The notes beneath the pieces are model-generated. The model worked only from the letters and a program-made list of their open reading frames with translations, was not told where the DNA came from and made no database searches. DNA of 64,000 bases from Simplicispira suum (GTDB lineage: Bacteria; Pseudomonadota; Gammaproteobacteria; Burkholderiales; Burkholderiaceae_C), in the NCBI RefSeq assembly GCF_003008595.1, contig NZ_CP027669.1, positions 186,001 through 250,000 on the forward strand. The letters are read 5' to 3'. Shown here piece after piece: positions 10,120-39,075 of the stretch. Position 1 is the stretch's first letter, and each line of letters begins with the position of its first letter. The position numbers and the translations under genes were made by a program.

Positions 10120-11979
10120 CTAGAGCGGCCGGATGCTGCCCGGAACAATTTTTGCGCCATGGTCACGCACCATGGCCTGGACGAAGGGGTCATTCATGAC
10201 GACGGTGCGGGCACGATCCAGCTCGGCATTGTCCTTTGCCGTATTGCGGCGCGCGGGCGTGTCGGTGACCGGCCCGATTTCCACGCTCAGGCGCTCGGCG
10301 TGGCCTGCGGCGGCGAGCGCGCTGCGCAGGCGCTCGCGGGTGGCCGGCTGGTTGAGCGATTCGCGCTCCACGCGCAGCAGCCAGTGCCCGCCGTCGCGCG
10401 CCAGCAATTGCGACTGGAGCGCCAGTTCCCTTACCAATGCCGTGACCGCGTCGGCTGCGATCAACTGCTGCACCACGCCGTGCCAGGTTTCACCTTCCGG
10501 CGTGGGAACCAGTGCGGCTGGGGCGGCGTCGGCGCGCGGCTGCAGGCGCGGGCCGGGCTCGGGGAGTTCGCGCACCGGCACGGTGAGCACGGCGGGCGCT
10601 GGCTGTGGGGTGGTGGGTGCCTCCACAGGTGCAGGGGGGGGCGGCTCGGGCGCCGCAGCCACAGGCTCTGCATTCGCTTCTATTTTTGTAGCTGTCAGCG
10701 CAGGCGCATCCTGCGCTAGAGGCCTATTTTCATCAAAATTTCTGGTTTCTCGAACGACGGGCGCCTCAGAGGTCGGCGCGGCAAGCGGTTCCGCATGCGA
10801 GACGTTTTGTCTGGCCGGCCCAGGCGCTTCAGGCGCTTGAACCGGCAGCGCCGTTTTTTTTTCCGCTCCGCCGGCGGCGGGCTTGAACGCCAGCAGGCGC
10901 AGCAGCACCATGGTCAGCGCGGCGTATTCGTCGGGCGCCAGGCCCAGCTCGGTGCGGCCGTGCAGGCACATGCTGTAGAGCAGTTGGGTCTCGTCGGGCG
11001 GCAGCAGCGCCGCCAGGCGGGCGGTTTCCTGGGCTTCGGCGTCGTCCTCGCCCGACTGGCGGTGGCCGGGCACGGCTTGCAGCACGGCCATGCGCTGCAG
11101 CAGTGCAGCCATGTCTTCCAGCGCTGCCGCAGCCGAGAGACCGTGCAGGCGCAGCGCCTCAGCGGTCTCCACCACGGTGCGGCCGTCGCCGCGCGCCAGG
11201 GCGTCGATCAGCTGCGTCACATGCGAGCGGTCCACGCTGCCCAGCATCTGGCGCACCGGGGCTTCCTCAATGCGGCCGCTGCCGAAGGCAATGGCCTGAT
11301 CGGTCAGCGAGAGCGCGTCGCGCATGGAGCCGCGCGCAGCTTTGGCCAGTTGGCGCAGCGCGGCCGGCTCGGCTTCGATCTGCTCTTGTGCGAGCACCTG
11401 GACGAGATGCTCCTGAACGGTGTCGGGCGCCATGGGGCGCAGGTTGAACTGGAGGCAGCGCGAGAGCACCGTCACCGGCACTTTTTGCGGGTCGGTGGTG
11501 GCGAGAACGAATTTGAGGTATTCGGGCGGCTCCTCCAGCGTCTTGAGCATGGCGTTGAACGCCGTGGTCGTGAGCATGTGGACCTCGTCGATCATGAAGA
11601 CCTTGAAGCGCCCCTGTACCGGTTTGTAGACCGCTTGTTCGAGCAGGCTTTGCACCTCATCGACGCCGCGGTTCGACGCAGCATCGAGTTCTGTGTAATC
11701 GACAAAGCGGCCGGCGTCGATGGCCGTACACGCTGCACAGACCCCGCAGGGCGTGGCCGTGATGCCGCCCTGCCCGTCCACGCCCTGGCAATTGAGGGAC
11801 TTGGCCAGAATGCGCGAGACCGTGGTCTTGCCGACGCCGCGCGTGCCGGTGAACAAATAAGCGTGGTGCAGCCGCTGCTGGGTGAGCGCATTGGTCAGCG
11901 CCTGCACCACGTGCTGCTGACCCACCATTTCGGTGAAATTGCGCGGACGGTACTTGCGGGCGAGCACGAGGTAGGACAT
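10120..11979 (-). CDS. dnaX: DNA polymerase III subunit gamma/tau
   Basis: This is the clamp-loader ATPase that also couples the polymerase cores to the replicative helicase. The 619-residue frame encodes tau. Domain I has Walker A (GTRGVGKTT), a four-Cys zinc site (CQGVDG...CGVCAAC), DEVHML and the sensor-1 region. Domains II-III run to about residue 370. A Pro/Ala/Glu-rich linker follows (about 375-485), then a C-terminal tau domain. An A9 tract at codons 373-376 could generate a short gamma-like product (separate entry). Residues 414-435 are encoded by a dispersed repeat copy. It leads the dnaX-ybaB-recR operon. Confidence 0.97.
   Translation of the reverse strand: MSYLVLARKYRPRNFTEMVGQQHVVQALTNALTQQRLHHAYLFTGTRGVGKTTVSRILAKSLNCQGVDGQGGITATPCGVCAACTAIDAGRFVDYTELDAASNRGVDEVQSLLEQAVYKPVQGRFKVFMIDEVHMLTTTAFNAMLKTLEEPPEYLKFVLATTDPQKVPVTVLSRCLQFNLRPMAPDTVQEHLVQVLAQEQIEAEPAALRQLAKAARGSMRDALSLTDQAIAFGSGRIEEAPVRQMLGSVDRSHVTQLIDALARGDGRTVVETAEALRLHGLSAAAALEDMAALLQRMAVLQAVPGHRQSGEDDAEAQETARLAALLPPDETQLLYSMCLHGRTELGLAPDEYAALTMVLLRLLAFKPAAGGAEKKTALPVQAPEAPGPARQNVSHAEPLAAPTSEAPVVRETRNFDENRPLAQDAPALTATKIEANAEPVAAAPEPPPPAPVEAPTTPQPAPAVLTVPVRELPEPGPRLQPRADAAPAALVPTPEGETWHGVVQQLIAADAVTALVRELALQSQLLARDGGHWLLRVERESLNQPATRERLRSALAAAGHAERLSVEIGPVTDTPARRNTAKDNAELDRARTVVMNDPFVQAMVRDHGAKIVPGSIRPL
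10678..10742 (+). repeat. Dispersed palindromic repeat, copy 2 (inside dnaX)
   Basis: Forward orientation on the plus strand: GTAGCTGTCAGCGC, CCTGCGCTAGAGGCC, then ATTTTCATCAAAATTT. The stem is AGCGCAGG/CCTGCGCT, unlike the commoner AGCGCTT/AAGCGCT, so both arms changed together. dnaX reads it in reverse as residues 414-435 (NFDENRPLAQ, then DAPALTATKIEA), inside the tau linker. Confidence 0.85.
10829..10863 (-). promoter_or_regulatory. Candidate dnaX frameshift/slippage site
   Basis: dnaX codons 373-376 read GAA AAA AAA ACG, giving nine consecutive A residues and a perfect A-AAA-AAA heptamer in frame. A -1 shift, or one extra A added in the transcript, gives AAC GGC GCT GCC GGT TCA AGC GCC and then TGA (10829-10831). 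That product would be about 383 residues and end just after the clamp-loader core. A GGAG lies 3 nt before the A-run, and a GGCGCT/AGCGCC stem follows it. Similar tracts make gamma in E. coli (-1 ribosomal shift) and Thermus (transcriptional slippage). Use here is inferred. Confidence 0.6.
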
Positions 11980-12097
11980 GTGGCAGGATTCTATGTGGCT
12001 GCGGCGGCCTCGCCCTATCGCCCTTGGGTTATCGCCTTCATGAACGCTTCATCTTGCACTGCGAATATCGGACCCCGTTGCACACAGAAAGCCACCC

Positions 12098-12652
12098 ATG
12101 ACCTCCAACGCTCTGGCCCATCACTACAACCGCTGGTCGATTGCCCTGCACTGGCTGATGGCCGTGCTGCTCGTCGCCACGGCCACCACCATGGAGCTGA
12201 AGGGGATTTACCCCAAAGGCAGCGCTGGACGCAGTCTGCTCATGTCGGTCCACTACGCCCTCGGCCTGTCCGTTTTTGCCTTGGTGTGGCTGCGGCTGCT
12301 GGCGCGCGCGCTGGGCCCCACCCCGGCTATCGCGCCGCCGCCGCCCGCCTGGCAGGTTCTGCTGGCCCATCTGGTGCACCTGGCGCTGTACGCGCTGATG
12401 ATCGGCCTGCCGTTCCTGGGCTGGATGGCACTCAGTGCCAAGGGCGCACCGGTTGCCTTGCCCGGCGGGATGGGTCTGCCGATGCTGCCCATCAGTGAAA
12501 GCAAGGAAACGGCGCGCTGGTTCAAAGACCTGCACGAGGCCGGCGCCACAGTGGGCTATGTGCTGGTCGGCCTGCATGCCGCTGCCGCCCTGTTCCACCA
12601 CTATGTGCAGCGCGACAACACCGTGCTGCGCATGCTGCCGGGTGCGCGCTGA
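12098..12652 (+). CDS. Cytochrome b561 family protein
   Basis: This 184-residue inner-membrane di-haem b protein has four predicted helices (about residues 14-32, 48-68, 88-108, 142-165). Candidate haem ligands are the histidines in SIALHWLMA, SVHYALGL and VGLHAAAALFHH. The closing motif FHHYVQRDNTVLRMLPG is typical of the CybB-type family, which passes electrons from quinol to periplasmic or membrane acceptors. It diverges from dnaX across a 118-bp spacer that must hold both promoters. The partner is unknown. Confidence 0.93.
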   Translation: MTSNALAHHYNRWSIALHWLMAVLLVATATTMELKGIYPKGSAGRSLLMSVHYALGLSVFALVWLRLLARALGPTPAIAPPPPAWQVLLAHLVHLALYALMIGLPFLGWMALSAKGAPVALPGGMGLPMLPISESKETARWFKDLHEAGATVGYVLVGLHAAAALFHHYVQRDNTVLRMLPGAR

Positions 12653-12678
12653 AGCGCACGCGGCGCGTCGCATACAAT
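12649..12678 (+). promoter_or_regulatory. Promoter of the 4.5S RNA gene
   Basis: The -10 box TACAAT (12673-12678) lies 7 nt before the first base of the 4.5S RNA. A weak -35 (CTGAAG, 12649-12654) lies 18 nt upstream and overlaps the cytochrome b561 stop codon. Confidence 0.6.
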
Positions 12679-12685
12679 CATTGGT

Positions 12686-12779
12686 GACGGGCCTCCCCGC
12701 ATGGTGAAGCGGCCAACCGGGTCAGGTGGGGAACCAAGCAGCCCTAACTGTGGAGCCAGTGCCGGGGGTAAGGCTCGTC
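12686..12779 (+). ncRNA. ffs: 4.5S RNA, signal recognition particle RNA
   Basis: This is the RNA core of the signal recognition particle, which binds Ffh and targets membrane proteins. The conserved Ffh-binding elements are present as GGGTCAGGTGGGGAACC and AAGCAGCC in the apical domain. The ends pair: GACGGGCCT at the 5' side with AGGCTCGTC at the 3' side, with one G-U pair. Length is about 94 nt, a small bacterial-type SRP RNA without an Alu domain. It is followed by a pyrimidine-rich stretch and then the convergent plsY gene. Confidence 0.93.
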
Positions 12780-12839
12780 AACTTCTTTTCGCCAGTCGTC
12801 ATTTGCTGAACGCCTGGCCAGCCGCCTTCTTTCCTTTTT

Positions 12840-13517
12840 TCAATGCCGCTTGCGGCGCCCCTTTGGGGCCACAGCGGCGCTGTTTGCCGCCCCCTTCTTG
12901 CTGCCCAGGCTCGATTCCGTTCCTTTGATCAGGCGGGCAATATTTTCCTTGTGCCGCCAGGCCAGCAGACTCGACATCACCACAATGGCCGCAGCAATGC
13001 TGCGCTCGGTGTCCCAGACCACGCCACCCACCAACACGTAGTACACCGGAGCAAACAGGGCGCTGGCCAGCGAAGCCAGCGACGAATAGCGAAAGAAAAA
13101 CGCCACGATCAGCCAGGTGGCTCCAGTGGCCAGCCCCAGCCAGAGACTGAAACCCACGAGCACACCCAGCGCCGTGGCCACGCCTTTGCCACCCTGAAAG
13201 CGGAAAAATATCGGCCACAAGTGGCCCACAAAAGCCGCCAGGCCCACCAGCGCCTGCGTTCCGTCTTCCAGCCCATACGGCGCACCGTACCAACGCACCA
13301 GCACCACCGGGAGCCAGCCCTTGGCAGCGTCAAGCAGCAGCGTCACGATGGCGGCGACCTTGCTGCCCGAGCGCAGCACATTGGTGGCGCCGGGGTTCTT
13401 GCTGCCAAAGGTGCGCGGATCGGCCAGGCCCATGGCGCGGCTGACGACCACGGCAAACGAGAGCGAGCCGAGCAGGTAGGCGGCAAGCACCGCAGCAAAG
13501 CTATAGGCAACAGGCAC
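12840..13517 (-). CDS. plsY: Glycerol-3-phosphate acyltransferase PlsY
   Basis: PlsY transfers an acyl group from acyl-phosphate to glycerol-3-phosphate, the first step of phospholipid synthesis, in the inner membrane. Family motifs are clear: [27 protein letters not shown] near the N-terminus, [18 protein letters not shown] in the middle and [16 protein letters not shown] near the end. Several membrane helices are predicted. I chose the GTG at 13517 because GGGAG precedes it by 8 nt and the protein (225 residues) then matches the family. The frame stays open further upstream without family similarity. The C-terminus has an extra basic tail. Confidence 0.9.
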
Positions 13518-13611
13518 GAAGAGCACTCCCAAAACAGTCAAAACGAGGATCAGCCGCTGATGGCGCCGCGGCGCGCCATTCTGCCAGCGACGCCATATCC
13601 CCTTGCTGCGG

Positions 13612-14112
13612 CTACTCCAGCGCGCACTGCACCGGCCGGGCGCCCAGCAGTCGCACGCAGACCTGCGGATCGATCTGCACCAGGAATCCGCGCCGCCCGC
13701 CGTTGATGGCAATGCGCGGCAGCGCGAGGATGCTTTCTTCAATAAAAACCGGCATTTCGCGGCGCGTGCCAAAGGGCGAGGTGCCGCCCACCAGGTAGCC
13801 GCTGTGGCGGTTGGCGACCTCGGGTGTGCAGGGCTCCACCGACTTGGCACCGATCTGGCGTGCCAGGTTCTTGGTGGAGACTGTGCGGTTGCCGTGCATC
13901 AGCACCAGCAGGGGTTTGGCGTCCTGGTCCTGCATGACCAAGGTCTTGACCACGGCGTACGGGTCCAGCCCCAGCACCGCCGCGCTGTGCTGGGCGCCAC
14001 CGTGCTCCAGGTACTCGTAGGGGTGGCTGGTGAACGCCACGCCGTGCGCACGCAGCATCTGTGTCGCGGGGGTTTCGCTGACGTGCGCGGCCTTTTTGTC
14101 CTTCTTTGCCAT
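13612..14112 (-). CDS. ybaK: Cys-tRNA(Pro)/Cys-tRNA(Cys) deacylase YbaK
   Basis: This 166-residue YbaK/EbsC-type protein hydrolyses Cys-tRNA(Pro) formed by mistaken charging by prolyl-tRNA synthetase. Features are the N-terminal [19 protein letters not shown], the active-site Lys in [11 protein letters not shown], and the [11 protein letters not shown] loop typical of YbaK rather than ProX. The C-terminal [13 protein letters not shown] completes the fold. A repeat copy fills the space between its start and the aldo/keto reductase stop codon upstream, so it may be transcribed from that gene. Confidence 0.93.
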
Positions 14113-14170
14113 ATTGAAAATGATAGCTGCAAGCGTTTACTGGATAAACGCCAGGAGCCATTTTTTGCCT
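14113..14170 (+). repeat. Dispersed palindromic repeat, copy 3
   Basis: Intergenic, forward orientation: ATGATAGCTGCAAGCG, then TGGATAAACGCCAGGAGCC and a T-run. The stem is GCGTTTA/TAAACGC. Relative to the common GCGCTTA/TAAGCGC one base pair has changed on both sides. It fills the whole gap between the aldo/keto reductase and ybaK genes. Confidence 0.82.
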
Positions 14171-15231
14171 TAAATCGCCGGGTCGCCCGTTTCCCAACGC
14201 AAGGTATCAATCGCTGTCAGCAGCTCCGGGCTGAGCGTGGTGCCAAAAGCGGCGATGTCTTCGTCAAGTTGCGCCATCGAGGTCACGCCAATGATGGTGC
14301 TGGCGACCTGCCACTTGGTATAGCAAAACGCCAGCGCCATCTGCGTGGGGCTCAATCCGTGGTCGCGCGCCAGCTGGTTGTAGCGGCGCGCGGCCGTCAG
14401 CGCCTCGGGGCGGCCCCAGCGCTGCTTGCGCACGCTGGCGTAGCTGGCCATGCGCGCACCGGCGGGTGCATTCGGACCCTCCGTGCCGCTGGCGTCGTAC
14501 TTGCCGGTGAGCAGGCCAAAGCCCAGTGGCGAGTAGGCCAGCAGGCCCACATCGAGGCGGTGGCAGGTTTCGTCCAGCGCGTTCTCGTAGCTGCGATTGA
14601 TCAGGCAGTACGGGTTCTGCACGCTCACCACGCGCGGCAGGCCATGCTGCTCGGCCAGCCGGACGAATTCGTGCACGCCATAGGGTGATTCGTTCGACAA
14701 GCCGATATGGCGCACTTTGCCCGCACGCACCAGGCCGGCCAAAGCATCCAGCTGCTCATGAATAGGCGTTTGCGAGGTCTCTTTGGCCGGGTCGTAGTAC
14801 TTGATGCCAAACACCGGCACGTGGCGCTCGGGCCAGTGGATCTGGTAGAGGTCGATGACGTCGGTCTGCAGTCGCCGCAGACTCGCTTCGCAAGACGCGA
14901 CGATGTCGGCCGGCGTCATGCCCTGCCCTGCACGCACCCAGGGCATGCCGCGCGACGGCCCGGCCACCTTGGTGGCCAGCACCGTCTTGGCACGCAGCCC
15001 AGGGCGGGATGCAAACCAGTTGCCCAGAATGGCTTCGGTGGCACCAAAGGTCTCGGCACGCGCCGGCACGGCGTACATCTCGGCCGTATCGATGAAGTTG
15101 ATGCCGCGCTCTGCCGCGCGGTCGAGCATGGCGTGGGCCGAGGCCTCGTCCACCTGTTCGCCGAAGGTCATGGTGCCCAGGCAGATGGGAGTGACGTGCA
15201 GGTCGCTTTGGCCGAGGGGGAGTGTTTTCAT
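14170..15231 (-). CDS. Aldo/keto reductase, Tas-like
   Basis: This 353-residue NADPH-dependent oxidoreductase has an AKR (beta/alpha)8 barrel. The N-terminal GLG-like start (PICLGTMTFGEQ), the catalytic Asp and Tyr in FIDTAEMYAVP, the catalytic Lys region TVLATKVAGPSRG and the catalytic His in YQIHWPERHVP are all visible. The ETFGATEAILGNW segment resembles E. coli Tas. The physiological substrate is unknown. It diverges from the following alpha/beta hydrolase across about 115 bp. Confidence 0.93.
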   Translation of the reverse strand: MKTLPLGQSDLHVTPICLGTMTFGEQVDEASAHAMLDRAAERGINFIDTAEMYAVPARAETFGATEAILGNWFASRPGLRAKTVLATKVAGPSRGMPWVRAGQGMTPADIVASCEASLRRLQTDVIDLYQIHWPERHVPVFGIKYYDPAKETSQTPIHEQLDALAGLVRAGKVRHIGLSNESPYGVHEFVRLAEQHGLPRVVSVQNPYCLINRSYENALDETCHRLDVGLLAYSPLGFGLLTGKYDASGTEGPNAPAGARMASYASVRKQRWGRPEALTAARRYNQLARDHGLSPTQMALAFCYTKWQVASTIIGVTSMAQLDEDIAAFGTTLSPELLTAIDTLRWETGDPAI

Positions 15232-15347
15232 GCGTTGCGGGGGCTTGTCAAAGGTTGGCGCTGCAGTTTACGGGCGCAGGCGCAATCGTGCAGGCGAGCC
15301 AACGCACAGGGATTTGTCGCCGCCAGGACAAGCCCCCACCGCAAGCC

Positions 15348-16283
15348 ATGAATAATTGGCGGATGTATTCAGAACGCTTTCCCGCCCGCACCGAAGTCGT
15401 GCGCATCCGCTCACTCGACTACCACGTCTGGCGCTGGGGCGCGCTGCAGAGTGACGCTCCGCCCCTTGTTTTGGTCCATGGCTGGATGGACGTGGGCGCT
15501 TCCTACCAGTTCATGGTCGACGCCCTGCCCGAGGCCTTTGTGCAAGGCCGGACCATCCTCGCGCCCGATTGGCGCGGCTTCGGCCTGACCAAACCACCGG
15601 TGCCAACAGACCACTACGCTTTTGCCGATTACCTGGCCGACCTGGACCAGTTGCTGGACCACTACGCCGGCGAGCGCCCGGTGGATCTGGTGGGCCACAG
15701 CATGGGCGGCAACATTGCCATGATGTACGCGGGCGTTCGCGCAACGCGGGTGCGGCGCCTGGTGAATCTGGAGGGCTTTGGCCTGCCCGCCTCCCAGCCC
15801 GAGTCTGCGGTGCGCCGCTACGGCGAATGGATGGACGAAATCCGCCAGCTCGAACGCGGCGAGATGGCACTCAAAAGCTACGAAGGCCTGAACGGCGTGG
15901 CGCGGCGGCTCATGAAGACCAACCCGCGCCTCTCGCAGGACAAAGCCGAATGGCTGGCGCAGCATTGGGCCGCGCCGGACGCGTCAGGCCGCTGGGCCAT
16001 CCTGGGCGACGCAGCCCACAAGGTCAAAAGCGCGCAACTCTACCGGGTGGACGAAGTGCAGGCACTCTACGCCGCCATCGCCGCGCCCACGCTGGCGGTG
16101 GAAGCCAGTGGCGACAGCCTGGGCCAGTGGTGGCAGGGCCGCTACACACTGGCGCAGTATCACGAGCGCCTGAAAGCCGTGGCGAACTGCCGCACCGCCG
16201 TCATCGAGGACGCAGGCCACATGCTGCACCACGACCAGCCCGAGGTACTGGCCAAGCTGGTCGAAGCGTTCCTAAGCGACTGA
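15348..16283 (+). CDS. Alpha/beta hydrolase
   Basis: This 311-residue hydrolase has an oxyanion motif (VLVHGWMDVGAS), the segment LAPDWRGFGLT and a nucleophile elbow (LVGHSMGGN, Ser118). The probable catalytic His lies in EDAGHMLHHDQPE near the C-terminus. The substrate is unknown. The start is uncertain between ATG at 15348 and ATG at 15363, and neither has a strong ribosome-binding site. It is convergent with glmM, with a dispersed repeat copy between them. Confidence 0.88.
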   Translation: MNNWRMYSERFPARTEVVRIRSLDYHVWRWGALQSDAPPLVLVHGWMDVGASYQFMVDALPEAFVQGRTILAPDWRGFGLTKPPVPTDHYAFADYLADLDQLLDHYAGERPVDLVGHSMGGNIAMMYAGVRATRVRRLVNLEGFGLPASQPESAVRRYGEWMDEIRQLERGEMALKSYEGLNGVARRLMKTNPRLSQDKAEWLAQHWAAPDASGRWAILGDAAHKVKSAQLYRVDEVQALYAAIAAPTLAVEASGDSLGQWWQGRYTLAQYHERLKAVANCRTAVIEDAGHMLHHDQPEVLAKLVEAFLSD

Positions 16284-16289
16284 AACCAG

Positions 16290-16352
16290 CAAAATTTTGA
16301 TGAAAAAAGGCTTCCAGCGCTTATCCAGAAAGCGCCAGATGCTATCAAAACA
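16290..16352 (-). repeat. Dispersed palindromic repeat, copy 4
   Basis: Intergenic between two convergent genes, reverse orientation on the plus strand: AAAATTTTGATGAAAAAAGG, CTTCCAGCGCTTATCC, AGAAAGCGCCAGATGC, then TATCAAAA. The position suits a transcription end, but no distinct terminator is separable from the repeat. Confidence 0.85.
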
Positions 16353-16367
16353 GGAATTGGGGAGTTG

Positions 16368-17702: not shown

Positions 17703-17748
17703 GCTGTTCCTCTCAAATATTCTTTTCTTCTGAACGGCTCGATGCGGC

Positions 17749-22679: not shown

Positions 22680-23099
22680 TTAGGCGTCTCTCTTGGGTCC
22701 AGCGGTACACCACAGCACCATCAGCGCGCACAGCCACTGCAGGCCCAACATGGCGCTGCCTGCGCTGTGCCACAAACGCAGGTTCTGCCGCGCCTCAATG
22801 CGGGGGGCCACGCCGAATTGCACCAACACTGCCAGCAGCATTCCGCCCAGTATGAAAAGCATAGCTGCTCGCGCCCATGGATACTGCGTTACCTCCCCTT
22901 TTGGCCTGGAAATCAGCAGCAGCAAAAGGCCGCAAGCGACCGACACCCAGGTCTGTGCAGCAAACAGCCGTGCGGCCATGTGGCCGGCCATGGCCGGCGT
23001 TGGCAAATAGGCGAACAACAGCGGCACGACGAGCGCACCCAAGGTGGTCAGGCTCCCCCACCACAACGCGGCCAGCAGCACGGGCAGCCGTTCGCGCAT
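22680..23099 (-). CDS. DUF4149 membrane protein
   Basis: This 139-residue protein has four predicted helices (about residues 6-30, 46-64, 76-97 and 112-131) in the DUF4149/TMEM205-like arrangement, with the opening LLAALWWGSLTTLGALVVPLLF. Function is unknown. It starts 2 nt before the greA stop codon region and is probably cotranscribed with greA, a frequent neighbour. Residues 63-83, the loop before and start of helix 3, are encoded by a copy of the dispersed repeat. Confidence 0.87.
   Translation of the reverse strand: MRERLPVLLAALWWGSLTTLGALVVPLLFAYLPTPAMAGHMAARLFAAQTWVSVACGLLLLLISRPKGEVTQYPWARAAMLFILGGMLLAVLVQFGVAPRIEARQNLRLWHSAGSAMLGLQWLCALMVLWCTAGPKRDA
22852..22912 (+). repeat. Dispersed palindromic repeat, copy 5 (inside DUF4149 gene)
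   Basis: Forward orientation on the plus strand: GCATAGCTGCTCGCGC, then CCATGGATACTGCG and TTTGGCC. The left half matches the family well and the right arm is degenerate. The gene reads it in reverse as GEVTQYPWARAAMLFI, in register with the SpoU-methyltransferase copy ([14 protein letters not shown]). Confidence 0.65.
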
Positions 23100-28833: not shown

Positions 28834-29607
28834 TCAGCGCGCGCTGGCGCTGGCGTGCAGGCAAATTGCGGCCGCCGCAGCCACGTTGAGCGACTCTTCG
28901 CCACCCGGCTGGGCAATGCGGATGCGCCGGGAGGCCCGCCCCTCCAGCTCGGCCGACACGCCCTGCCCTTCGTGGCCCAGCACCCAGGCACAGGGCCAGG
29001 GCAGTTCCGCGCGATGCAGGAAGTCGCCTTCGTGCACATGGGTCACCAGCATGGGCACCCGCAGCGGCTGAAGGTCTTCGAGGCTTGCGGCTTCGATCAG
29101 GTCCAGTGCGAAATGCGCGCCCATGCCCGCCCGGAGCACCTTGGGCGACCACAGGGCAGCGCTGCCCTTGAGGGCAAGCACCTGCCGAAATCCAAATGCG
29201 GAAGCACTGCGCAGGATGGAGCCGACATTGCCAGCATCCTGCACGCGGTCGAGCACCACCGTCGCCGCATCGGGTTGCAGCGCGGTGGCAGCAGGCAGTT
29301 CGATGATGAAGCCCATGCGCGCTGGAGACTCCAGGCCGCTGATGTCGGCAAACAAGGCATCGGACAACACTATCGTTTTGCTAGCTGCTAGCGCCCATTC
29401 CACCTGCGCCAGAGGCCAAAAAGACTCCGAAAAAACCGCAATCGAGACACGCTGTCCCCGCGTCAGCGCTGCACGGCAGAGGTGATCGCCTTCGACCCAG
29501 ACGCGGCCCTGCTTGCGATATTGCGTGCTGTCCTGCGCCAGTCGGCGCAGATCTTTGACGAAGGCGTTGTCCCGCGAATGGATCGCTGTCACCAAGGGCG
29601 AGGTCAT
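28834..29607 (-). CDS. SpoU/TrmH family RNA 2'-O-methyltransferase
   Basis: This 257-residue enzyme has an N-terminal substrate-binding domain ([17 protein letters not shown]...) and a C-terminal SPOUT knot. SPOUT motifs are visible: [17 protein letters not shown] (motif 1), [14 protein letters not shown] (motif 2) and [19 protein letters not shown] (motif 3). It is close to RlmB, which methylates G2251 of 23S rRNA, but the target base is not certain. The start overlaps the rnhB stop by 4 nt. Residues 60-80 are encoded by a copy of the dispersed repeat. Confidence 0.93.
29369..29436 (+). repeat. Dispersed palindromic repeat, copy 6 (inside SpoU gene)
   Basis: Forward orientation on the plus strand: GCTAGCTGCTAGCGC, then TGCGCCAGAGGCCAAAAA. 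The gene reads it in reverse as [19 protein letters not shown] (residues 62-80). That is codon for codon in register with the dnaX copy (RPLAQDAPALTATKI). The palindrome centre has diverged. Confidence 0.82.
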
Positions 29608-30242
29608 CGGCAGACCTCTTCACGCAGGCTCTGCGCCACGGGCGCAAAAGAGCGCCGATGGTGAATGCATGCGCCATGCACGTGCAAGGCAGCCATGTGT
29701 GCGGCCGTACCGTAGCCCTTGTGTCCGGCAAAACCGTACTGCGGAAATGCATCGTGCACCTGCACACACCAACGATCCCGGTGCACCTTGGCCAGAATGG
29801 ATGCAGCCGAAATGGCTTGTACCAACGTGTCGCCCTTGACGATGGCCTCGGCCGGCATATCGAGCAGCGGCAGGCGGTTGCCATCGACCAGCACCATGGC
29901 CGGTTTGAGCCGCAAACCCATCACGGCCCGGCGCATGGCCAGCAGCGTGGCCTGCAGGATGTTGAGCCGGTCGATTTCTTCCACGCTGGCCTCGGCAATG
30001 CTGCAGCACAGCGCCTTGGCGCGAATTTCGTCGTAGAGCTTTTCCCGCCGGGACGGCGTCAGCTTCTTGGAATCAGCCAGTCCGGCGATGGGATGCAAAT
30101 CATCCAGGATGACGGCCGCCGCCACCACCGGGCCTGCCAGCGGGCCGCGACCCGCCTCGTCCACCCCCGCCACCAGGCCGCGAGGGTGCCATGGCAGGCA
30201 GGATTGTTCAGGCCGTGGGGGCAAGGACTTTCTGGATTGCAT
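29604..30242 (-). CDS. rnhB: Ribonuclease HII
   Basis: RNase HII cleaves RNA in DNA duplexes, including single misincorporated ribonucleotides. The 212-residue protein begins its conserved core with the catalytic pair in [21 protein letters not shown], followed by [11 protein letters not shown] and the Asp in LVDGNRLP. The [14 protein letters not shown] motif is present near the C-terminus. It overlaps the lpxB stop by 35 nt and the downstream methyltransferase start by 4 nt. The lpxB-rnhB order is conserved in proteobacteria. Confidence 0.96.
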
Positions 30243-31371
30243 CGGCGGCCAGTTGGGGGGTATTGCGCTGCAAGCTTTGGTGCAGTGCGGTAAAGCGCTG
30301 GTGCAGCGCGGTCATTCGGTCAGGGTCCTGCTCCAGCGCATCGAACCACTGCAACACCGCAGCGGCCAGCGACTGCGGCGTGGCATCGTCCTGAAGAAGC
30401 TCGGGCACGACAAAATCCTTGCACAAGATATTGGGCAAACCCACCCAGGGCTGCAATTGCTTGCGGCGCATCAGGCGCCAACTCAGCGGGTGCATGCGGT
30501 AGCCGATGACCATGGGGCGCTTGAACAGCGCGGCCTCCAAGGTCGCAGTGCCGCTGGCAATCAGCGTCACATCACAAGCCGCCAATGCCGTGTGCGATTG
30601 ACCGGAAATGACCTGCAGCACATCGCCCAGACCGCAGGTGCGCGCCGCTTGCTCGATACGGTTGAGTAAGGCCGGGACCGCAGGAACTATCATTTTTATA
30701 GCCGGAAGCGCTTGATGGATAAGCGCTGCAGCCTCAAAGAACCTTGGAGTGATGTACTGCACCTCGGCCGACCGGCTGCCTGGCAGTATGGCCAGCACCG
30801 CATCATGGTCCTGCAGCCCCAATACGGCACGGGCTGCGCGGCGGTCGGGCTCCATGGGAATCACTCCGGCCAGAGGGTGCCCCACATAGGTGGCGGCAAT
30901 GCCGTGGAGCGCAAGCAAAGCTGGTTCAAAGGGAAAGATGCAGAGCACATGGTCGGCTGCGCTGCGGATTTTCTCCACCCGATCTGCACGCCAGGCCCAG
31001 ATGGACGGGCAGACAAAATGCACGGTCTTGATACCAGCGGTGCGCAGGTCGGCTTCCAGTCCCAGATTGAAGTCGGGGGCATCGATACCAATAAACACGT
31101 CGGGCGGGCCACCCAGCAGCCGCCCGCGCAGCTGGCGCCGCATGCGAATGAGTTCGGCGAGACGGCCCAGCACCTCAAAACTGTAGCCGTGAACAGCAAG
31201 CCGCTCACTGGGCCACCAGGCGTCAAAACCTTGCCCGGACATCTGGGGGCCGCCAATGCCGAATGCCTGCAGATCGGGCCACAGGCCGCGCATGCCGCTC
31301 AGCAGCAGGCTGGCCAGCAGATCGCCAGACGTTTCGCCCGCCACCATGGCGATGCGCGGTTGCTGCGCCAT
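30208..31371 (-). CDS. lpxB: Lipid-A-disaccharide synthase
   Basis: LpxB joins UDP-diacylglucosamine and lipid X to form the lipid A disaccharide at the inner membrane. The 387-residue GT-B enzyme shows the N-terminal [23 protein letters not shown], the segment [23 protein letters not shown] and the C-terminal donor-site region [14 protein letters not shown]. The ATG at 31371 has GAGG just upstream and starts 4 nt after lpxA. Residues 211-230 ([17 protein letters not shown]) are encoded by a dispersed repeat copy, although overall length stays normal. Confidence 0.96.
30686..30747 (+). repeat. Dispersed palindromic repeat, copy 7 (inside lpxB)
   Basis: Forward orientation: TATAGCCGG, then AGCGCTTGATGG and ATAAGCGCT, identical over this palindromic core to the intergenic copy at 45356. 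The reverse reading in lpxB gives [15 protein letters not shown], almost the direct translation of the family consensus. Confidence 0.88.
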
Positions 31372-31375
31372 ATCC

Positions 31376-32164
31376 TCAGCGAACAATGCCGCGCGACGAC
31401 GCATCGAGCAGATTGAGCATCAACGCCACGTCCTGCTGCGCCTCCTCGGTCGGCAATGCTGCAATGGCCGCGCGCGCTGCCGCCAGCGTCAGCCCCTGGC
31501 GATAGAGAAGGCGGTGCATCTGCTTGATGACCGCAACCCGCGCGCTGGAAAACCCCCGCCGCCGCAGGCCTTCGGCGTTCAGGCCGCGCACCGCCAGCGG
31601 GTTGCCGTCCACCATCATGAAGGGCGGAACGTCCTGCGAAATATGGCTGGCAAAACCCGCCATGACATAGGCGCCCACGCGTGTGAACTGATGGATGCCC
31701 GTCAGCCCGCCGATGATGGCGAAATCGTCGATCTGCACATGTCCCGCCAGCGTCGCATTGTTGGCCAGCACCGTGCCATGGCCCACCGTGCAGTCGTGCG
31801 CGATGTGGACGTAGGCCATGATCCAGTTGTCGTCGCCTACCGTCGTGACTCCGCGATCCTGCGCCGTGCCGGTGTTGATGGTGCAGAACTCGCGGATGGT
31901 GTTGCGATCGCCAATGACCAGGGCCGTGGCTTCGCCGGCATATTTCTTGTCCTGGGGCGGCGCGCCGACGGACGCAAACTGAAAAATGCGGTTGTCCTGG
32001 CCAATGCGGGTGTAGCCATCAATCACGCAGTGCGCCCCCACCGTGGTGCCCGCACCAATGCGCACGTTCGGTCCGATGACCGCGTACGGTCCGATCTGCA
32101 CCGAAGCGTCGATCTGCGCTGCCGCGTCCACCACGGCGGTGGAGTGAATGTGGGCCGCTGCCAA
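31376..32164 (-). CDS. lpxA: UDP-N-acetylglucosamine acyltransferase
   Basis: LpxA transfers a beta-hydroxyacyl chain from ACP to O-3 of UDP-GlcNAc, the first step of lipid A synthesis. Left-handed beta-helix hexapeptide repeats ([20 protein letters not shown] and on) fill the first 190 residues. The catalytic His lies in the [15 protein letters not shown] segment region ([19 protein letters not shown]). I chose the TTG at 32164, preceded by GGAGG, because it gives exactly 262 residues, the family length. An ATG at 32203 would overlap fabZ by 25 nt. Confidence 0.92.
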
Positions 32165-32178
32165 TCCCGCGCCCTCCG

Positions 32179-33608: not shown

Positions 33609-33635
33609 GCCAAACCCGCAGAATGCTCGGCGCGC

Positions 33636-34154
33636 TTATTTGGCCGGCGCAGCATTGAGCGCCTTGATCACTTTGTCGGTGATGTCGTTCTTGGGGTTGA
33701 TGTAGACGGCCTGATCAAGAATGATGTCGTATTTTTCTTGCTCGGCAATCTGCTTGACCACCTTGTTCACACGATCGCCCATCTGGGTCAGCTCTTCGCT
33801 CTTGCGCAAGTTGAGGTCTTCCTGAAATTCGCGCCGCTTGCGCTGGAAGTCACGGTCCTGATCCACCAGCTGGCGCTGGCGGGTGGTGCGCTGGCTCTCG
33901 GACAGCGTGGGCGCCTCACGTTCAAATTTTTCGTTCGCGGCCTTGAGTGCATTGCCTTGATCGAGCAGTTCCTTGTCGCGCCGCGAGAACTCCTGCTCCA
34001 GCTTGGCTTGCGCTGCTTTGGCGGTGTTGGCTTCGCGAAAGACGCGTTCGGTATGCACGAAACCGGCCTTGAATTCCTGGGCCTGCGCGGGCACCCAGGC
34101 AGCCACAGCGGCCAGCGCCAGGGTGCAAGCGGCGAAACGAGAAGTATGTTTCAT
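33636..34154 (-). CDS. skp: OmpH/Skp family periplasmic chaperone
   Basis: Skp is a trimeric periplasmic holdase for unfolded outer-membrane proteins. The 172-residue precursor has a signal peptide (about residues 1-25, cleaved after PAQA). A short beta segment (KAGFVHTERVFREA) follows, then two long charged coiled-coil helices forming the tentacles (about 45-130) and a C-terminal strand (YDIILDQAVYINPKNDIT). Its start overlaps the bamA stop codon by 1 nt. Confidence 0.95.
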   Translation of the reverse strand: MKHTSRFAACTLALAAVAAWVPAQAQEFKAGFVHTERVFREANTAKAAQAKLEQEFSRRDKELLDQGNALKAANEKFEREAPTLSESQRTTRQRQLVDQDRDFQRKRREFQEDLNLRKSEELTQMGDRVNKVVKQIAEQEKYDIILDQAVYINPKNDITDKVIKALNAAPAK

Positions 34155-36451
34155 TAGAAAGACGTTCCGATCTGGAATTGCAATTCCTGAATTCTATCCC
34201 CGGCGAATTTGCGCACTGGCTTGGCGTACGCCAGGCGCAGCGGTCCGAGTGGCGAGATCCAGCTCAGGCCCACGCCCACTGAGGCACGCATTTCGCTGAA
34301 ACGGACACGCTCGTTGTCGCCATACACGTTGCCAAGGTCGGCAAAAGTGAACACGCGCAAGGTGCGATCGTTGCCGGCGCCCGGGAAGGGGGCGATCAGT
34401 TCGACGTTGAGTGAGACCTTTTTCGGCCCACCCAAGGATGCACCGGTCACGTCGCGCGGGCCCAGGGTGCCCTGATCAAAGCCACGTACGGATCCCAGGC
34501 CGCCCGAATAGAAGTTCTTGAAAACCGGGAACGGCCGGCCGTTGATGCCCTTGCCCACCCCCACTTCTCCGTTAAAGGCCAAGGTGAACTTCTTGTTCAG
34601 CGGCACATACTGCTGGTACTGGTAATTGGCCCGCACGTAGCGCGCATCTCCAGCGACGGACCATTCCGAATTGAACTTCTGATAGACCCCTACATTGGGG
34701 GCCAGCGCGCTGTCGCGGCTGTCGCGCGACCAACCAATCGTGAGCGGCACCGCCGAGCTGCTGTAGCCATAGCGGTCCGCATACACCAGATAGGCCGCAG
34801 GAATGTTGGTCCCCGGCTTGATGCGGGTTTGCTCCAGCCCGCCGCCAAAAAACACGGTGTCGGTTTCGCTGAATGGCACACCAAAACGTGCGCTGGCGCC
34901 GGTCGTCACCAATTCGTAGTTGCCACCCTGGTCTTCATAGGGTTTGTCGGTGCGGTAGTACAAGTCGATCGTGCGCGAAATACCGTCCTGGGTGAAATAC
35001 GGATTGGTGGTGCTGAATACCAAGGTACGTTTGTACTTGCTGGTATTGACGTCGATGCCCAGGTAGTTGCCCGAACCAAAAACGTTTTCCTGCTTGATGG
35101 CAAACGAGAAAGACACTTTCTCGGCACTGGAAAAGCCCGCGCCCAGCTGCAGGGAACCCGTCGGTTTTTCTTTCACGCTGATCACCAGATCGACCTGATC
35201 GGGTGCGCCGGGTACTTCCTGGCTCTCCACGTCGACCTCGGTAAAGTAGCCAAGGCGGTCGACGCGGTCGCGCGAGAGGCGGATTTTCTCGCCGTCATAC
35301 CAGGAGGCCTCAAACTGGCGGAATTCGCGCCGCACCACCTCGTCCCGCGTGCGATCATTGCCCGCGATGCTGATGCGCCGCACATAGGCGCGGCGCTGCG
35401 GATCGGCGGTCAGCACAAGCGCCACCTGGCCTTTTTCGCGGTCAATCTCGGGAACGGCTTCGATGCGCGCAAAAGCAAAGCCAAAATTTCCAAAGTGGTC
35501 AGAAAACGCCTTGGTGGTTTCTGCCACCTGATCGGCGTTATAGGGCTCGCCGGCGCGGATCGCTACCAGAGATTTGAACTCGTCATCGCGGTCCAGGTAG
35601 TTGCCCTCCAGCTTGACGCTGGAGACTACAAAGCGCTCCCCTTCGGTCACGTTGACCGTGATGGAGATGTCCTGCTTGTCCGGCGTGAGCGCCACTTGTG
35701 TGGAATCAATGCGGAACTCCAGGTAGCCGCGCTGCAGGTAGTAAGAGCGCAGCGTTTCCAGATCGGCATTGAGTTTGGCGCGCGAATACCGATCTGACTT
35801 GGTGTACCAGCTGAGCCAACCACCAGTGTCCTGGTCAAACAGGCCCTTGAGCGTCGATTCACTGAAGGCCTTGTTGCCCACAATGTGGATGTCCTTGATG
35901 CGCGCCGTATCGCCCTCGGTTACCGTGAACGTCAGATTGACGCGGTTGCGCTCAATCGGCGTAACCGTAGTAACCACTTCGGCGGCATAAAAACTCTTGT
36001 TCAGGTACTGGCGCTTGAGCTCTTGCTCGGCGCGATCGGTCAGCGCCTTGTCGTACGGGCGCCCGTCGGTCAGGCCGATGTCGCGCATGACGTTCTTGAG
36101 CGTTTCTTTGTCGAACTCGCGTGCGCCAGCAAACTCGACATTGGCAACCGTGGGACGCTCCTGTACCACCACCACCAGCACGTCCCCCGAAGCTTCGAGG
36201 CGCACATCGGTAAACAGTCCCAGACCAAACAGGGCCCGAATGGCTGCGGAGCCCTTGTCGTCGCTGTATTCGTCGCCCACGCGCAGCGGGAGCGACGCAA
36301 ACACCGTCCCCGGTTCCACGCGCTGCAGGCCTTCGACGCGGATATCGCGGACCTTGAAAGGCTCCAGAGCCCAGGCGGCCTGGGCCGCGAGAACCAGGGC
36401 TGCCACGGCCGCAACGGTCCGCACGCCAAAGCGAGGTAGTTTTTTATTCAT
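34154..36451 (-). CDS. bamA: Outer membrane protein assembly factor BamA
   Basis: BamA is the core of the BAM complex that inserts beta-barrel proteins into the outer membrane. The chosen start gives 765 residues with a signal peptide (about 1-28, AQAAWA). Five POTRA domains follow (about 29-430), then the 16-stranded surface-antigen barrel with the conserved GGLGSVRGFDQGTLGP loop. The sequence ends in the aromatic C-terminal strand QIGTSF. The ribosome-binding site is weak. It lies 52 nt after rseP and is followed directly by skp. Confidence 0.97.
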   Translation of the reverse strand: MNKKLPRFGVRTVAAVAALVLAAQAAWALEPFKVRDIRVEGLQRVEPGTVFASLPLRVGDEYSDDKGSAAIRALFGLGLFTDVRLEASGDVLVVVVQERPTVANVEFAGAREFDKETLKNVMRDIGLTDGRPYDKALTDRAEQELKRQYLNKSFYAAEVVTTVTPIERNRVNLTFTVTEGDTARIKDIHIVGNKAFSESTLKGLFDQDTGGWLSWYTKSDRYSRAKLNADLETLRSYYLQRGYLEFRIDSTQVALTPDKQDISITVNVTEGERFVVSSVKLEGNYLDRDDEFKSLVAIRAGEPYNADQVAETTKAFSDHFGNFGFAFARIEAVPEIDREKGQVALVLTADPQRRAYVRRISIAGNDRTRDEVVRREFRQFEASWYDGEKIRLSRDRVDRLGYFTEVDVESQEVPGAPDQVDLVISVKEKPTGSLQLGAGFSSAEKVSFSFAIKQENVFGSGNYLGIDVNTSKYKRTLVFSTTNPYFTQDGISRTIDLYYRTDKPYEDQGGNYELVTTGASARFGVPFSETDTVFFGGGLEQTRIKPGTNIPAAYLVYADRYGYSSSAVPLTIGWSRDSRDSALAPNVGVYQKFNSEWSVAGDARYVRANYQYQQYVPLNKKFTLAFNGEVGVGKGINGRPFPVFKNFYSGGLGSVRGFDQGTLGPRDVTGASLGGPKKVSLNVELIAPFPGAGNDRTLRVFTFADLGNVYGDNERVRFSEMRASVGVGLSWISPLGPLRLAYAKPVRKFAGDRIQELQFQIGTSF

Positions 36452-36503
36452 GGAAAGAGGTCGATGTCGGTACCACCGTGCGCCAGCGCCCGGGGCCCGC
36501 AGG

Positions 36504-37865
36504 TTAGCCAAACAGCCGGTTCAGATCGTTAAACAATGCGATGGACATCATCAGCAGCAAAATGGCGACACCGCCGCGCTGCAGCTTTTCCATCCAGGCC
36601 TCGGACACACCCTTGCCCGTGAGACCCTCCCAAAGATAATACATCAGGTGCCCCCCATCGAGCACCGGCAAGGGCAGCAGGTTCAGCACGCCCAAGCTCA
36701 CGCTGATCAGTGCCAGAAACGTCAGATAGTGCGTCAGTCCGCCATGCGCTGAACGGCCAGCGTAGTCGGCAATGGTCAGCGGACCGCTGAGGTTTTTGAT
36801 CGAGGCTTCTCCGATCAGCATGCGGCCCATCATTTTGAGCGACAGCGCAGAGACCTGCCAGGTGCGCTCGACACCGCCCCACAGACCTTCCAGCACGCCA
36901 TAGCGCACGGTGGTGAACTGCGGCGGCTCGCCCACGTACGCGCCGATACGGCCAATCTTCGCGCCCTCTTCATCCGCGAGGTCGGGAGCGATATCCAGCT
37001 CCAACAGGCGTCCGCCCCGCTCGATGCGCCAAGGCTGCGCCAAAGGCGCGCCAGCCCGCACCGAAGAGCGAATGCGCTCACGCAATTGCTGGGCATCGCC
37101 AATATCCGCATCGCCGATGCGCAAGACCAGATCGCCCGGCTGCAAGCCAGCGCGAGCCGCTGCGCCGCCCTCCATCACCTCGCCGATGACCGGCCGAGTC
37201 CAAGGCGTGACAATGCCAATTTTTCGAAGCAGCTGGGCATCGGCTTCGCGTACATCAATCTGATCGAGTGGCAACAGCACAGAGCGCAGCGGCGCGCCAG
37301 GGCGGACCTCCACTTCCAGCCGCACTGGCGTGCTGTCCAGCGCACCGCGCGTCAACGTCCAGCGCAGGTCCTCAAACGAGCGCAACTCGCGCGGCTCGTC
37401 GTCGCCGAGCGCAGCGCTTTGAATGCGTTCGCCGCCGTGCAGCCCTGCCACCTGTGCAATGGAGCCAGCCGGCGGGCTGGAAATGTAGGCCATGGGTTCC
37501 TGGACACCCGCCCAATTCACCAACGCATACAGAAGCACCGCAAGCAACAGATTGGCCAACGGCCCCGCAGCAACAATGGCGGCGCGCGCGCGCAAGGGTT
37601 GCGTATTGAATGCCAAGTGCCGCTCCTCGGGGGACACTGGGGCTTCGCGCTCGTCCAGCATGCGTACGAAACCACCCAGCGGAAAAGCGGCCAATACAAA
37701 TTCGGTCGATGAGCCCTTGGGTTGCCAGCGCAACAAGGGTTTGCCGAAGCCAATGGAAAACCGCAGCACCTTGACACCGCAGGCCACAGCCACACGGTAG
37801 TGGCCGTACTCGTGCACGGCAATGAGGATGGCAAGCGCGCCAATGAAAGCGATCAGTGTCAGCAC
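36504..37865 (-). CDS. rseP: RIP site-2 metalloprotease RseP
   Basis: RseP cleaves anti-sigma factor RseA and remnant signal peptides within the inner membrane. The GTG at 37865, with AAGGAG 7 nt upstream, gives 453 residues and the family N-terminus. The zinc site is H18-E19-x-x-H22 in the first helix. Two PDZ domains lie at about 125-220 and 225-310. The third metal ligand is in NLLPLPVLDGGHL near the C-terminus. It starts 19 nt after dxr. Confidence 0.96.
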   Translation of the reverse strand: MLTLIAFIGALAILIAVHEYGHYRVAVACGVKVLRFSIGFGKPLLRWQPKGSSTEFVLAAFPLGGFVRMLDEREAPVSPEERHLAFNTQPLRARAAIVAAGPLANLLLAVLLYALVNWAGVQEPMAYISSPPAGSIAQVAGLHGGERIQSAALGDDEPRELRSFEDLRWTLTRGALDSTPVRLEVEVRPGAPLRSVLLPLDQIDVREADAQLLRKIGIVTPWTRPVIGEVMEGGAAARAGLQPGDLVLRIGDADIGDAQQLRERIRSSVRAGAPLAQPWRIERGGRLLELDIAPDLADEEGAKIGRIGAYVGEPPQFTTVRYGVLEGLWGGVERTWQVSALSLKMMGRMLIGEASIKNLSGPLTIADYAGRSAHGGLTHYLTFLALISVSLGVLNLLPLPVLDGGHLMYYLWEGLTGKGVSEAWMEKLQRGGVAILLLMMSIALFNDLNRLFG

Positions 37866-37884
37866 GTGCAACTCCTTGCGAAGG

Positions 37885-39075
37885 TCAGGCCGCCATGCGC
37901 GCGGCGTGCTGCTGCGCGCTGCTGCGCGCCTGTGCATCAAGCTCAAGCAGCGCCGCCAGCGAATCGGGTTTGGAGGAGGGAACTGCGGTCAAAGTTTCGA
38001 CATTCAAGGCGTGAATCTGGTCAAACCGGATGCGCCGCTCCAGAAAAGCCGCCACGGCCACCTCATTCGCTGCGTTGAGCACCACCGTGCTTCCCGGCGG
38101 AGCCGCCAGGGTTTCCCAGGCCAGGCGCAGCGAAGGGAAACGCTCTGGATGCCCGTGATCGTCGATGGACTCGAAGGTCATCGCGCCAAGTGCATGAAAA
38201 TCGAGTGCCGCCGCGCCCGAGGCGACACGCTCGGGCCACGACAGGCCGTACGCAATAGGCACGCGCATGTCTGGTGTGCCCATTTGCGCCACCACCGACA
38301 TGTCGCGGTACTGAACCATGGAGTGGATGGTGCTTTGCGGGTGAATGACCACATCCAGCTGCTCTGGCGCCAAACCAAACAAATAGCGGGCCTCGATGAC
38401 TTCGAGCGCCTTGTTCATCATGGTGGCCGAATCGACCGAGATCTTGCGTCCCATGACCCAATTGGGGTGGGCACAGGCATCCTCGGGGGTCACGTCGCGC
38501 AAGCTGCCCGGCGCGCGCGAGCGAAACGGGCCGCCCGAGGCGGTGAGGATGATTTTGTCGACCCGCTCACCCCAGGTCGCAGGATCGTCCGGCAGAGACT
38601 GAAAAATCGCCGAATGCTCGCTGTCAATCGGCAGCAGCGTCGCATGGCCGTCCCGCACCGCACGCAGAAAAACTTCGCCACCCACCACCAACGCTTCCTT
38701 GTTGGCCAGCAGCAAGCGCTTGCCGGCGTGCGCGGCCGCCAGACAGGGCGCCAGACCGGCGGCTCCGACGATGGCCGCCATCACGCTGTCGACCTCTGCG
38801 TGAGATGCTATTGTTTCAAGAGCGTCCGGCGCTTGCAGTACCTGCGTTGGAAGCCCATTGGACTGAATTTTTTCCGCCAGATCGCGGGCATGTGCCGCGC
38901 TTGCCATCACCGCGTAGCGGGGCCGAAACTGCGCGCATTGCGCCAGCAACAGATCGGTTTGCGTGGCGGCGCTCAAGGCAAAGACTTCAAAGCGCTCAGG
39001 GTGGCGCGCGATCACATCCAGGGTGTTCTTGCCAATCGACCCGGTGGAACCGAGCACCGTCACGCGCTGGCGCAT
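37885..39075 (-). CDS. dxr: 1-deoxy-D-xylulose-5-phosphate reductoisomerase
   Basis: Dxr converts DXP to MEP with NADPH in the non-mevalonate isoprenoid pathway, feeding UppS further upstream in the operon. The 396-residue protein has the NADPH motif VLGSTGSIGKNTLDVI, the loop LLANKEALVVGGEVF and the metal/substrate site LPIDSEHSAIFQ. The ATG overlaps the cdsA stop as TGATG. Residues 68-91 are encoded by a dispersed repeat copy, with no change in length compared with E. coli Dxr. Confidence 0.97.
   Translation of the reverse strand: MRQRVTVLGSTGSIGKNTLDVIARHPERFEVFALSAATQTDLLLAQCAQFRPRYAVMASAAHARDLAEKIQSNGLPTQVLQAPDALETIASHAEVDSVMAAIVGAAGLAPCLAAAHAGKRLLLANKEALVVGGEVFLRAVRDGHATLLPIDSEHSAIFQSLPDDPATWGERVDKIILTASGGPFRSRAPGSLRDVTPEDACAHPNWVMGRKISVDSATMMNKALEVIEARYLFGLAPEQLDVVIHPQSTIHSMVQYRDMSVVAQMGTPDMRVPIAYGLSWPERVASGAAALDFHALGAMTFESIDDHGHPERFPSLRLAWETLAAPPGSTVVLNAANEVAVAAFLERRIRFDQIHALNVETLTAVPSSKPDSLAALLELDAQARSSAQQHAARMAA
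38804..38874 (+). repeat. Dispersed palindromic repeat, copy 8 (inside dxr)
   Basis: A degenerate forward copy. GATGCTATTGTTT closely matches the left end of copy 1 (GAAGCTATTGTTT), with further agreement in GCGCTT, GGAAGCC and GAATTTTTTC at the same spacing. dxr reads it in reverse as LPTQVLQAPDALETIA (residues 75-90), in the same register as the other coding copies. Confidence 0.6.

Follow-up and report, generated by a model that had tools for sequence, protein, structure and literature searches.

The 64-kb window analysed here (C1:186001-250000 of the 4.15-Mb genome of Simplicispira suum, the chromosome of which measures 3.92 Mb) contains 12 copies of a 68-bp dispersed element, five of them within genes and seven between genes or at their edges. 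The repeat is genuine, and in the genes compared across relatives the aligned sequences indicate that it arose in place and not by insertion. We consider it rather probable that it defines a new class of chromosomal signal, namely an evenly spaced 68-bp duplex site, present in hundreds per genome, retained at homologous places for as long as the family has existed and dictating codons and some residues of LpxB, GlmU, MiaA, Dxr and other proteins. It would be either one more, independent uptake-signal system, larger than any before it, or a new kind of site for organising the genome. An earlier note on this DNA had described the repeat in dnaX, lpxB, dxr, a gene for a SpoU-family methyltransferase (spoU) and an open reading frame (ORF) to which that note gave the family label DUF4149, and it does lie in one orientation and one reading frame at all five places.

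For detection we used a covariance model, R1, trained on 23 copies that lie within intergenic DNA or at its borders, with the five coding copies excluded, and a gapless 68-column matrix built from the same 23 training copies and applied at a threshold of at least 12 bits. Run on the window without filters and with matches listed at E<=10, R1 recovered the copies in dnaX, lpxB, spoU and dxr, so that a profile from intergenic copies, as had been proposed, finds four of the five coding ones. The DUF4149 copy is not in that list; it scores 21.8 bits with the matrix, and the place between the same flanking genes scores 36.2, 20.9 and 12.3 bits in the relatives G004, G025 and G007, respectively, on which grounds we accept it as a weak copy. 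In a sample of 61 pieces totalling 1,255,148 bases (30% of the genome, training copies included) the matrix found 186 places, as against none in the reversed sequence, while each of 20 column-permuted matrices found either zero or one; by extrapolation the chromosome would hold about 580 copies. Such strong over-representation of a dispersed motif is characteristic of uptake sequences. A whole-genome search, in which 150 of 1611 candidates were scored, put all 150 listed places on the main contig, and no Rfam family reached its gathering score over the element. According to the calls of a home-made gene caller, 118 of the 186 copies lie between genes, 28 extend across a gene end and 40 (about a fifth) are in-gene, with at least 60 of their 68 bp overlapping a called gene; most copies (146 of 186) thus lie outside called genes. 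The figure of 40 is a slight undercount because the caller mis-started one of the spoU and DUF4149 genes and missed the other, leaving both copies out.

Conservation of position and of DNA in host genes

Five host genes were compared with relatives, namely lpxB, spoU, glmU, miaA and, within the genus only, dxr. The congener set comprised 20 of 23 congeners with an lpxB match, and we added 20 of the 62 bearing genomes from other genera and 9 of the 233 genomes without a match in the family-wide search. The element occupies the same place of both lpxB and dxr in all 18 bearing congeners, and of spoU in all 17 bearing congeners that have a recognisable gene. In other genera it lies over the same codons, at 12 bits or more, in the lpxB of 18 of the 20 bearers (the exceptions are G098, with 9.3 bits, and G204) and in the spoU of 17 of the 20 (the exceptions are G035, G148 and G204). 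Two of the nine genomes without a strict match, G050 and G062, carry the motif in lpxB and spoU, and G051, which also lacks a strict match, reaches 11.8 bits in spoU. On the opposite strand, glmU has the element in 22 of 22 bearers and miaA in 21 of 21 (displaced in one), and neither gene has it in any of eight non-bearers. As the same codons carry it in most bearers of other genera, we regard the element as an old and maintained DNA motif and not as a recent invader. The earlier note had held that the similarity would be coincidental if distant genera showed the same protein segments without the DNA motif: this describes most of the non-matching genomes, and the carriers keep the motif in their DNA.

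The same note had likened the element to the protein-invading repeats of Rickettsia, a likeness that fails in the five genes compared, where nearly all carriers have it over the same codons and most show little or no added length. An insertion of the Rickettsia palindromic element (RPE) type is rejected for these genes on the basis of their lengths relative to G002 and G005, two close congeners without a whole-genome match. In lpxB, spoU and dxr the carriers of the genus have no extra residues over these two, and the protein length across the element is equal, so that the observation that LpxB and Dxr are of normal length stands. The element region of GlmU spans 23 residues in 19 of 22 carriers, as in G002 and G005, and 27 residues in G001, G006 and G140, while that of MiaA spans 23 residues in 20 of 21 carriers, as against 23 and 24 in G002 and G005. 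The miaA of G141 (L354) has a strong copy (61 bits) within an expansion of 42 residues, which is possibly a relocated or a new copy. In three distant non-bearers the GlmU loop is 7 residues shorter than in most bearers, and an early small change in the length of GlmU relative to these genomes is possible. The dxr gene of G004 (L146) is interrupted by a frameshift that lies downstream of the repeat and is either a sequencing error or a real break.

Codons were examined in lpxB, spoU and dxr over 19, 18 and 18 genomes of the genus, respectively, with the dxr of G004 left out. The GC content of third codon positions (GC3) is 0.42, 0.42 and 0.34 within the element versus 0.81, 0.84 and 0.79 outside it, with codons ending in A or T (ATA, AAA, GCT) recurring at the same places of the element. 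Third bases of fourfold-degenerate codons are identical at 0.72, 0.71 and 0.70 of comparisons within the element versus 0.62, 0.59 and 0.55 outside. Among the other overlapping 23-codon windows, this level is reached by 0 of 330 in lpxB, 6 of 189 in spoU and 0 of 328 in dxr, and amino-acid identity in all three genes is lower within the element than outside. Third bases that depart from genome usage and yet are unusually conserved imply that selection or drive acts on the DNA.

Over about 70 columns the motif holds 65.8 bits of information in the 146 copies not in genes and 51.3 bits in the 40 in-gene ones. Columns 13-15 of the former read AAA in 114 copies, TTT in 21 and otherwise in 11, so that the homopolymer tract may lie on one strand or the other. 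Several intergenic copies have palindromic arms, the inner pairs of which are mostly lost within genes. The arms pair in 75% of cells in the 146 copies and in 64% in the 40, no better than with shuffled partners, and they show no covariation in either intergenic or in-gene copies. Given this lack of covariation we reject an RNA structure and infer a duplex site, read as double-stranded DNA, in place of a hairpin. We make no claim of helical phasing, since the peak in AT content was reached by 101 of 1000 column permutations.

Placement across the chromosome and in the window

The 24 in-gene copies on the strand seen in the window genes fall into frames 0, 1 and 2 in 4, 17 and 3 cases, frame 1 being that of the window genes, and the 16 on the opposite strand in 4, 1 and 11 cases. 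The claim that orientation and frame are always the same therefore holds for the five window copies but not for the genome sample, in which 17 of 40 are in that frame and 16 of 40 on the opposite strand. The suspected bias beyond what stop codons impose is borne out: 17 copies are seen in frame 1 versus 7.6 expected from the frames open in the 118 intergenic copies (p about 5e-4), and the overall distribution over frames and strands also deviates from expectation. The preference for this frame is real, without being a rule. Coding potential is positive in the frame of the gene on both flanks of 36 of the 40 in-gene copies and on one flank of the remaining four, which lie at gene ends; inside the repeat itself the mean is -2.7, with negative values for 27 of the 40. 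A Pfam search with 29 proteins harbouring 30 of these 40 copies, plus SpoU, identified among the hosts HemD, an HrpA-like helicase, UvrD, a CCA-adding-type enzyme, DnaX, MiaA, a Kdo transferase, a GlmU-type protein, PurL, AroE, LpxB, Dxr and an aminopeptidase-N-type protein.

The copies are spaced more evenly than chance: only 4 pairs of neighbours lie less than 1 kb apart, versus 21.5 expected at random and 13.2-15.4 expected under null models that confine copies to actual gaps and genes (P<=0.001). Gaps between convergent genes are enriched: 40 copies fall in 130 gaps of this kind, compared with 87 in 608 tandem gaps and 12 in 133 divergent ones. No bias of orientation by replichore was found (51:49 versus 42:44, with boundaries taken by eye from GC skew). 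Two 20-kb stretches, L079 and L080 (G000:C1:3133777-3153776 and 3199064-3219063), are the sole sampled ones of this size without a copy and are possibly acquired islands.

All five coding copies of the window, like their genes, are on the minus strand. That in dnaX (gene at 10120-11979, Pfam DnaX), in the frame of the earlier note, lies at 10674..10741 and scores 50.8 bits with R1 (E 1.4e-9), and the weak copy of the DUF4149 ORF (22680-23099) lies at 22847..22914. The remaining three, in genes likewise identified with Pfam, are at 29367..29434 in spoU (28834-29607; 28.6 bits, E 2e-4), at 30684..30751 in lpxB (30208-31404; 38.1 bits, E 1.2e-6, over model positions 19-68, and 43.1 bits over all 68 columns of the matrix) and at 38805..38872 in dxr (37885-39078; 26.1 bits, E 7.5e-4). 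Among the other seven, the copy at 43..110 (plus strand, R1 75.4 bits, E 2.5e-15) lies near the window start and precedes a minus-strand gene. The copy at 14109..14176 (minus strand, 36.5 bits), which was absent from the earlier list, lies across the short gap of two minus-strand genes and has an orthologous copy of 61.4 bits in G007, and that at 45346..45413 (minus strand, 67.4 bits) covers the 3' end of a gene and the next short gap. Four plus-strand copies are found between convergent genes, at 16292..16359 (60.0 bits), 48214..48281 (69.3 bits), 57035..57102 (67.1 bits) and 61019..61086 (53.9 bits). Apart from the copy at 14109..14176, these seven all belong to the R1 training set. Orthologous copies of those at 45346, 48214 and 57035 are present in G004, G025 and G007, and of those at 16292 and 61019 in G025 and G007, so that the position is orthologous in 14 of 14 comparisons covering 6 of the 7 places. 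In G005 the place corresponding to 48214..48281 is a gap of 16 bp with no copy.

The window also contains, at 9517-9616 and 9649-9748, direct repeats of 100 nucleotides with 86% identity and no match to the element matrix, two closely placed and near-identical tRNA genes at 50662-50743 and 50852-50933, and at 55101-55249 a match to the ZMP/ZTP riboswitch that is barely over the cut-off (40.6 versus 39 bits).

Occurrence among relatives

Whole-genome searches of the genus gave matches in 9 of 12 relatives and none in G002, G005 and G008. Across the family at least 66 of 299 genomes match, in 36 of 126 genera, in a strict R1 search with 17 candidates scored per genome; this is a lower bound because R1 under-detects, as seen from G050 and G062, which go unmatched in spite of their motifs in lpxB and spoU. 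The exact core pattern was found in 82 stretches of named genomes, the records of which include entries for Acidovorax, Giesbergeria, Simplicispira, Extensimonas, Comamonas and Paenacidovorax, and a BLAST search with a single consensus gave matches in 3 of 72,556 plasmid records and in 0 of 50,697 phage records. In a three-protein tree of 28 genomes with the element columns masked, G002 and G005 are nested among bearers as the sister group of G010 (support 1.0), a genome with 58 matches, below the other eight bearing congeners. On the simplest reading one maintaining factor was lost in the G002/G005 lineage and the copies then decayed. When possible remnants were ranked, the exact site came first in spoU, dxr and glmU of G002, fifth in its lpxB and second, one base off, in its miaA. 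In G005 it came second in glmU and twenty-first in lpxB, with the remaining genes off register; in G051 it headed the ranking in spoU and also, displaced by 3, in miaA, and in the distant G040 it was sixth in lpxB. These ranks are only supportive of decay because protein homology contributes to them. The overall pattern suggests that a cellular reader, perhaps one involved in DNA uptake, maintains the element; a single trans-acting reader of this kind would hold the copies in place, and its loss would lead to their decay by point mutation.

The sole Y1_Tnp gene of G000 (C1:2421692; L068:5950-6800, C1 about 2421.5-2422.4 kb) adjoins a GGGGTCAGACCCC-type repeat. Of 26 genomes examined in the genus, 22 have matches to PF01797, and Y1_Tnp matches are also present in G002, G005 and G008, all of which are without a detectable copy. 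The location of this gene beside another repeat, together with the presence of its family in element-free congeners, led us to reject a system of repetitive extragenic palindromes (REPs) and their associated tyrosine transposases (RAYTs).

Possible functions and comparison with known systems

Of the readings considered we favour that of a large uptake-signal sequence, at odds that are about even. On this reading, natural transformation based on the type IV pilus would prefer fragments with the motif, and as these recombine at homologous places they would mend the copies there or bring them closer to the motif, amounting to a molecular drive. The size of the incoming fragment would then set the spacing of copies, which would be kept in those places and frames where the encoded peptide is tolerated. 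Even spacing, in-place origin, tolerance of frame and a family that includes natural transformers make uptake sequences the closest resemblance, although we do not assign the element to any known family of them. Natural transformation is reported for Verminephrobacter eiseniae and for two of the four Acidovorax species tested, and DNA uptake by V. eiseniae is reported to be sequence specific (PMC4212676).

Several observations weigh against an uptake signal. With about 70 columns and 51-66 bits the element is far longer than known uptake cores, and its positional conservation is stronger than would be expected of a turnover-prone uptake motif, even though the lpxB of G098 and G204 and the spoU of G035, G148 and G204 are without it despite copies elsewhere in these genomes. 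ComEC is present in 55 of 58 genomes. Those with it include G002 and G005, in which no copy is detectable, and the three lacking it are G008, G047 and the bearer G009. GspH/FimT, found in 44 of 47 genomes, does not track the element, and neither does the type of minor-pilin operon, which is divergent in the bearers G010 and G141 and of the usual kind in the non-bearer G005 (a comparison made by tblastn because the gene caller is poor on the codon usage of other genomes). None of these three separates carriers from non-carriers, which speaks against competence genes as the trans factor, and no reader protein emerged among the competence genes and Y1 transposases compared. Moreover, Acidovorax strains are reported to have taken no markers from other Acidovorax species (PMC4212676). 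Relatives would be expected to share the motif, and so this failure may count against an uptake signal, but lack of homology could also lie behind it. The minor-pilin/PilY1 operon (L356-L375, beside rpsO-pnp and ribD) appears to have been replaced by a divergent version in G002, G008, G010, G141 and G051, and the PilY1 of G005 is unusually close to that of G001, which suggests that cassettes may have been exchanged there.

On account of the size and positional rigidity of the element and of competence genes that do not track it, a chromosome-organising site stays a serious rival. Here a DNA-binding protein of high abundance, whether nucleoid-associated, condensin-loading or gyrase-type, would act on evenly spaced 68-bp duplexes, each under selection, in keeping with the even spacing, the A-tracts on either strand without hairpin covariation, the strong positional conservation and the nested lineage without any detectable copy. 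However, hundreds of redundant sites would each need selection for 20-60 bits within core genes, orientation shows no replichore bias, and detectable copies are absent from several genomes within the genus and from many in the wider family. On balance we regard this explanation as possible but somewhat unlikely.

An ancient mobile element of the RPE, REP or miniature inverted-repeat transposable element (MITE) kind, which entered the genome a single time and has since been passed on as a fossil, would fit the high copy number, the palindromic arms of several copies and the preference for gene 3' ends apparent from the gap counts above, as well as the much shorter gap at one non-coding place of the copy-free G005 and the GlmU loop shorter by 7 residues in three distant element-free genomes. 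Little or no length has been added to genes relative to close congeners, however, and a fossil should decay, yet third positions inside the element are more conserved than elsewhere; the arms do not covary, and the Y1 transposase family is also present in G002 and G005. This origin is largely refuted for the coding copies compared, and we deem it improbable in general. Ectopic gene conversion by a selfish repeat, rewriting partly similar places to a consensus with length unchanged, would account for the in-place origin, the shared consensus and the closeness of in-gene copies to it, but the places tested are old and shared, leaving little room for recent spread, and loops and flanks vary between copies, so that conversion tracts would need to be very short; it strikes us as quite improbable. 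Least credible of all is an RNA hairpin or terminator signal, which would agree with the enrichment of convergent gaps and the palindromic arms of several intergenic copies but not with arms that do not covary either between or within genes, nor with copies on both gene strands, and a mid-gene terminator would presumably stop transcription.

If a single reader fixes hundreds of sites, many of them within core genes, a DNA code that spans the chromosome and has nothing to do with protein function would be shaping the silent positions, and a number of residues, of core enzymes. Phylogenetics and selection tests on host genes are also affected by the element. The known uptake signals are those of Neisseriaceae and Pasteurellaceae. 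Should the element be one, it would represent a new family and by far the longest, and self-recognition in transformation would become testable in environmental bacteria; if it is not, it points to a chromosome-organising protein. In the open-licence literature, represented mostly by titles and the starts of abstracts, we found no description of this repeat, or of an uptake sequence in this bacterial family, among the papers listed.

The DNA uptake sequences (DUS) of Neisseriaceae and the uptake signal sequences (USS) of Pasteurellaceae resemble the element in their hundreds of copies within and between genes, in adding little or no length, in having a preferred reading frame and orientation, and in spacing more even than random without replichore bias. 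The A/T tracts that USS have beside a GC-rich core may be likened to those of the element. Sequence-specific uptake is also reported in its family, for Verminephrobacter. Two further papers attribute uptake sequences to point mutation and not insertion (PMC1939737) and describe one orientation as commoner in reading frames (PMC2346458). The differences lie in size, the core of DUS and USS being about 9-12 bp as against the roughly 70 informative columns and 51-66 bits of the element, and in the palindromic arms at the core of several copies, its strong positional conservation and occurrence in another bacterial family. RPEs, which are palindromic, are similarly dispersed repeats, in frame in core genes and sharing their place among orthologues; they are described as inserted DNA (PMC3767692), whereas the element adds no or few residues relative to close congeners and has constrained silent sites. 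REPs, including their paired form (REPIN), with RAYT are small palindromic repeats and are comparable in their hundreds of copies mostly outside genes. They are described as ending in a GTAG or CGTC tag (PMC3733652). No such tag is evident in the column table of the element, though no search was aimed at it. Unlike REPs, about one fifth of the copies of the element are in genes, its arms do not covary and the Y1 transposase family does not track it. Lastly, HIP1 of cyanobacteria is a very abundant 8-mer overlaid on coding sequence. The element shares with it this overlay, while being a long composite site and not an 8-mer.

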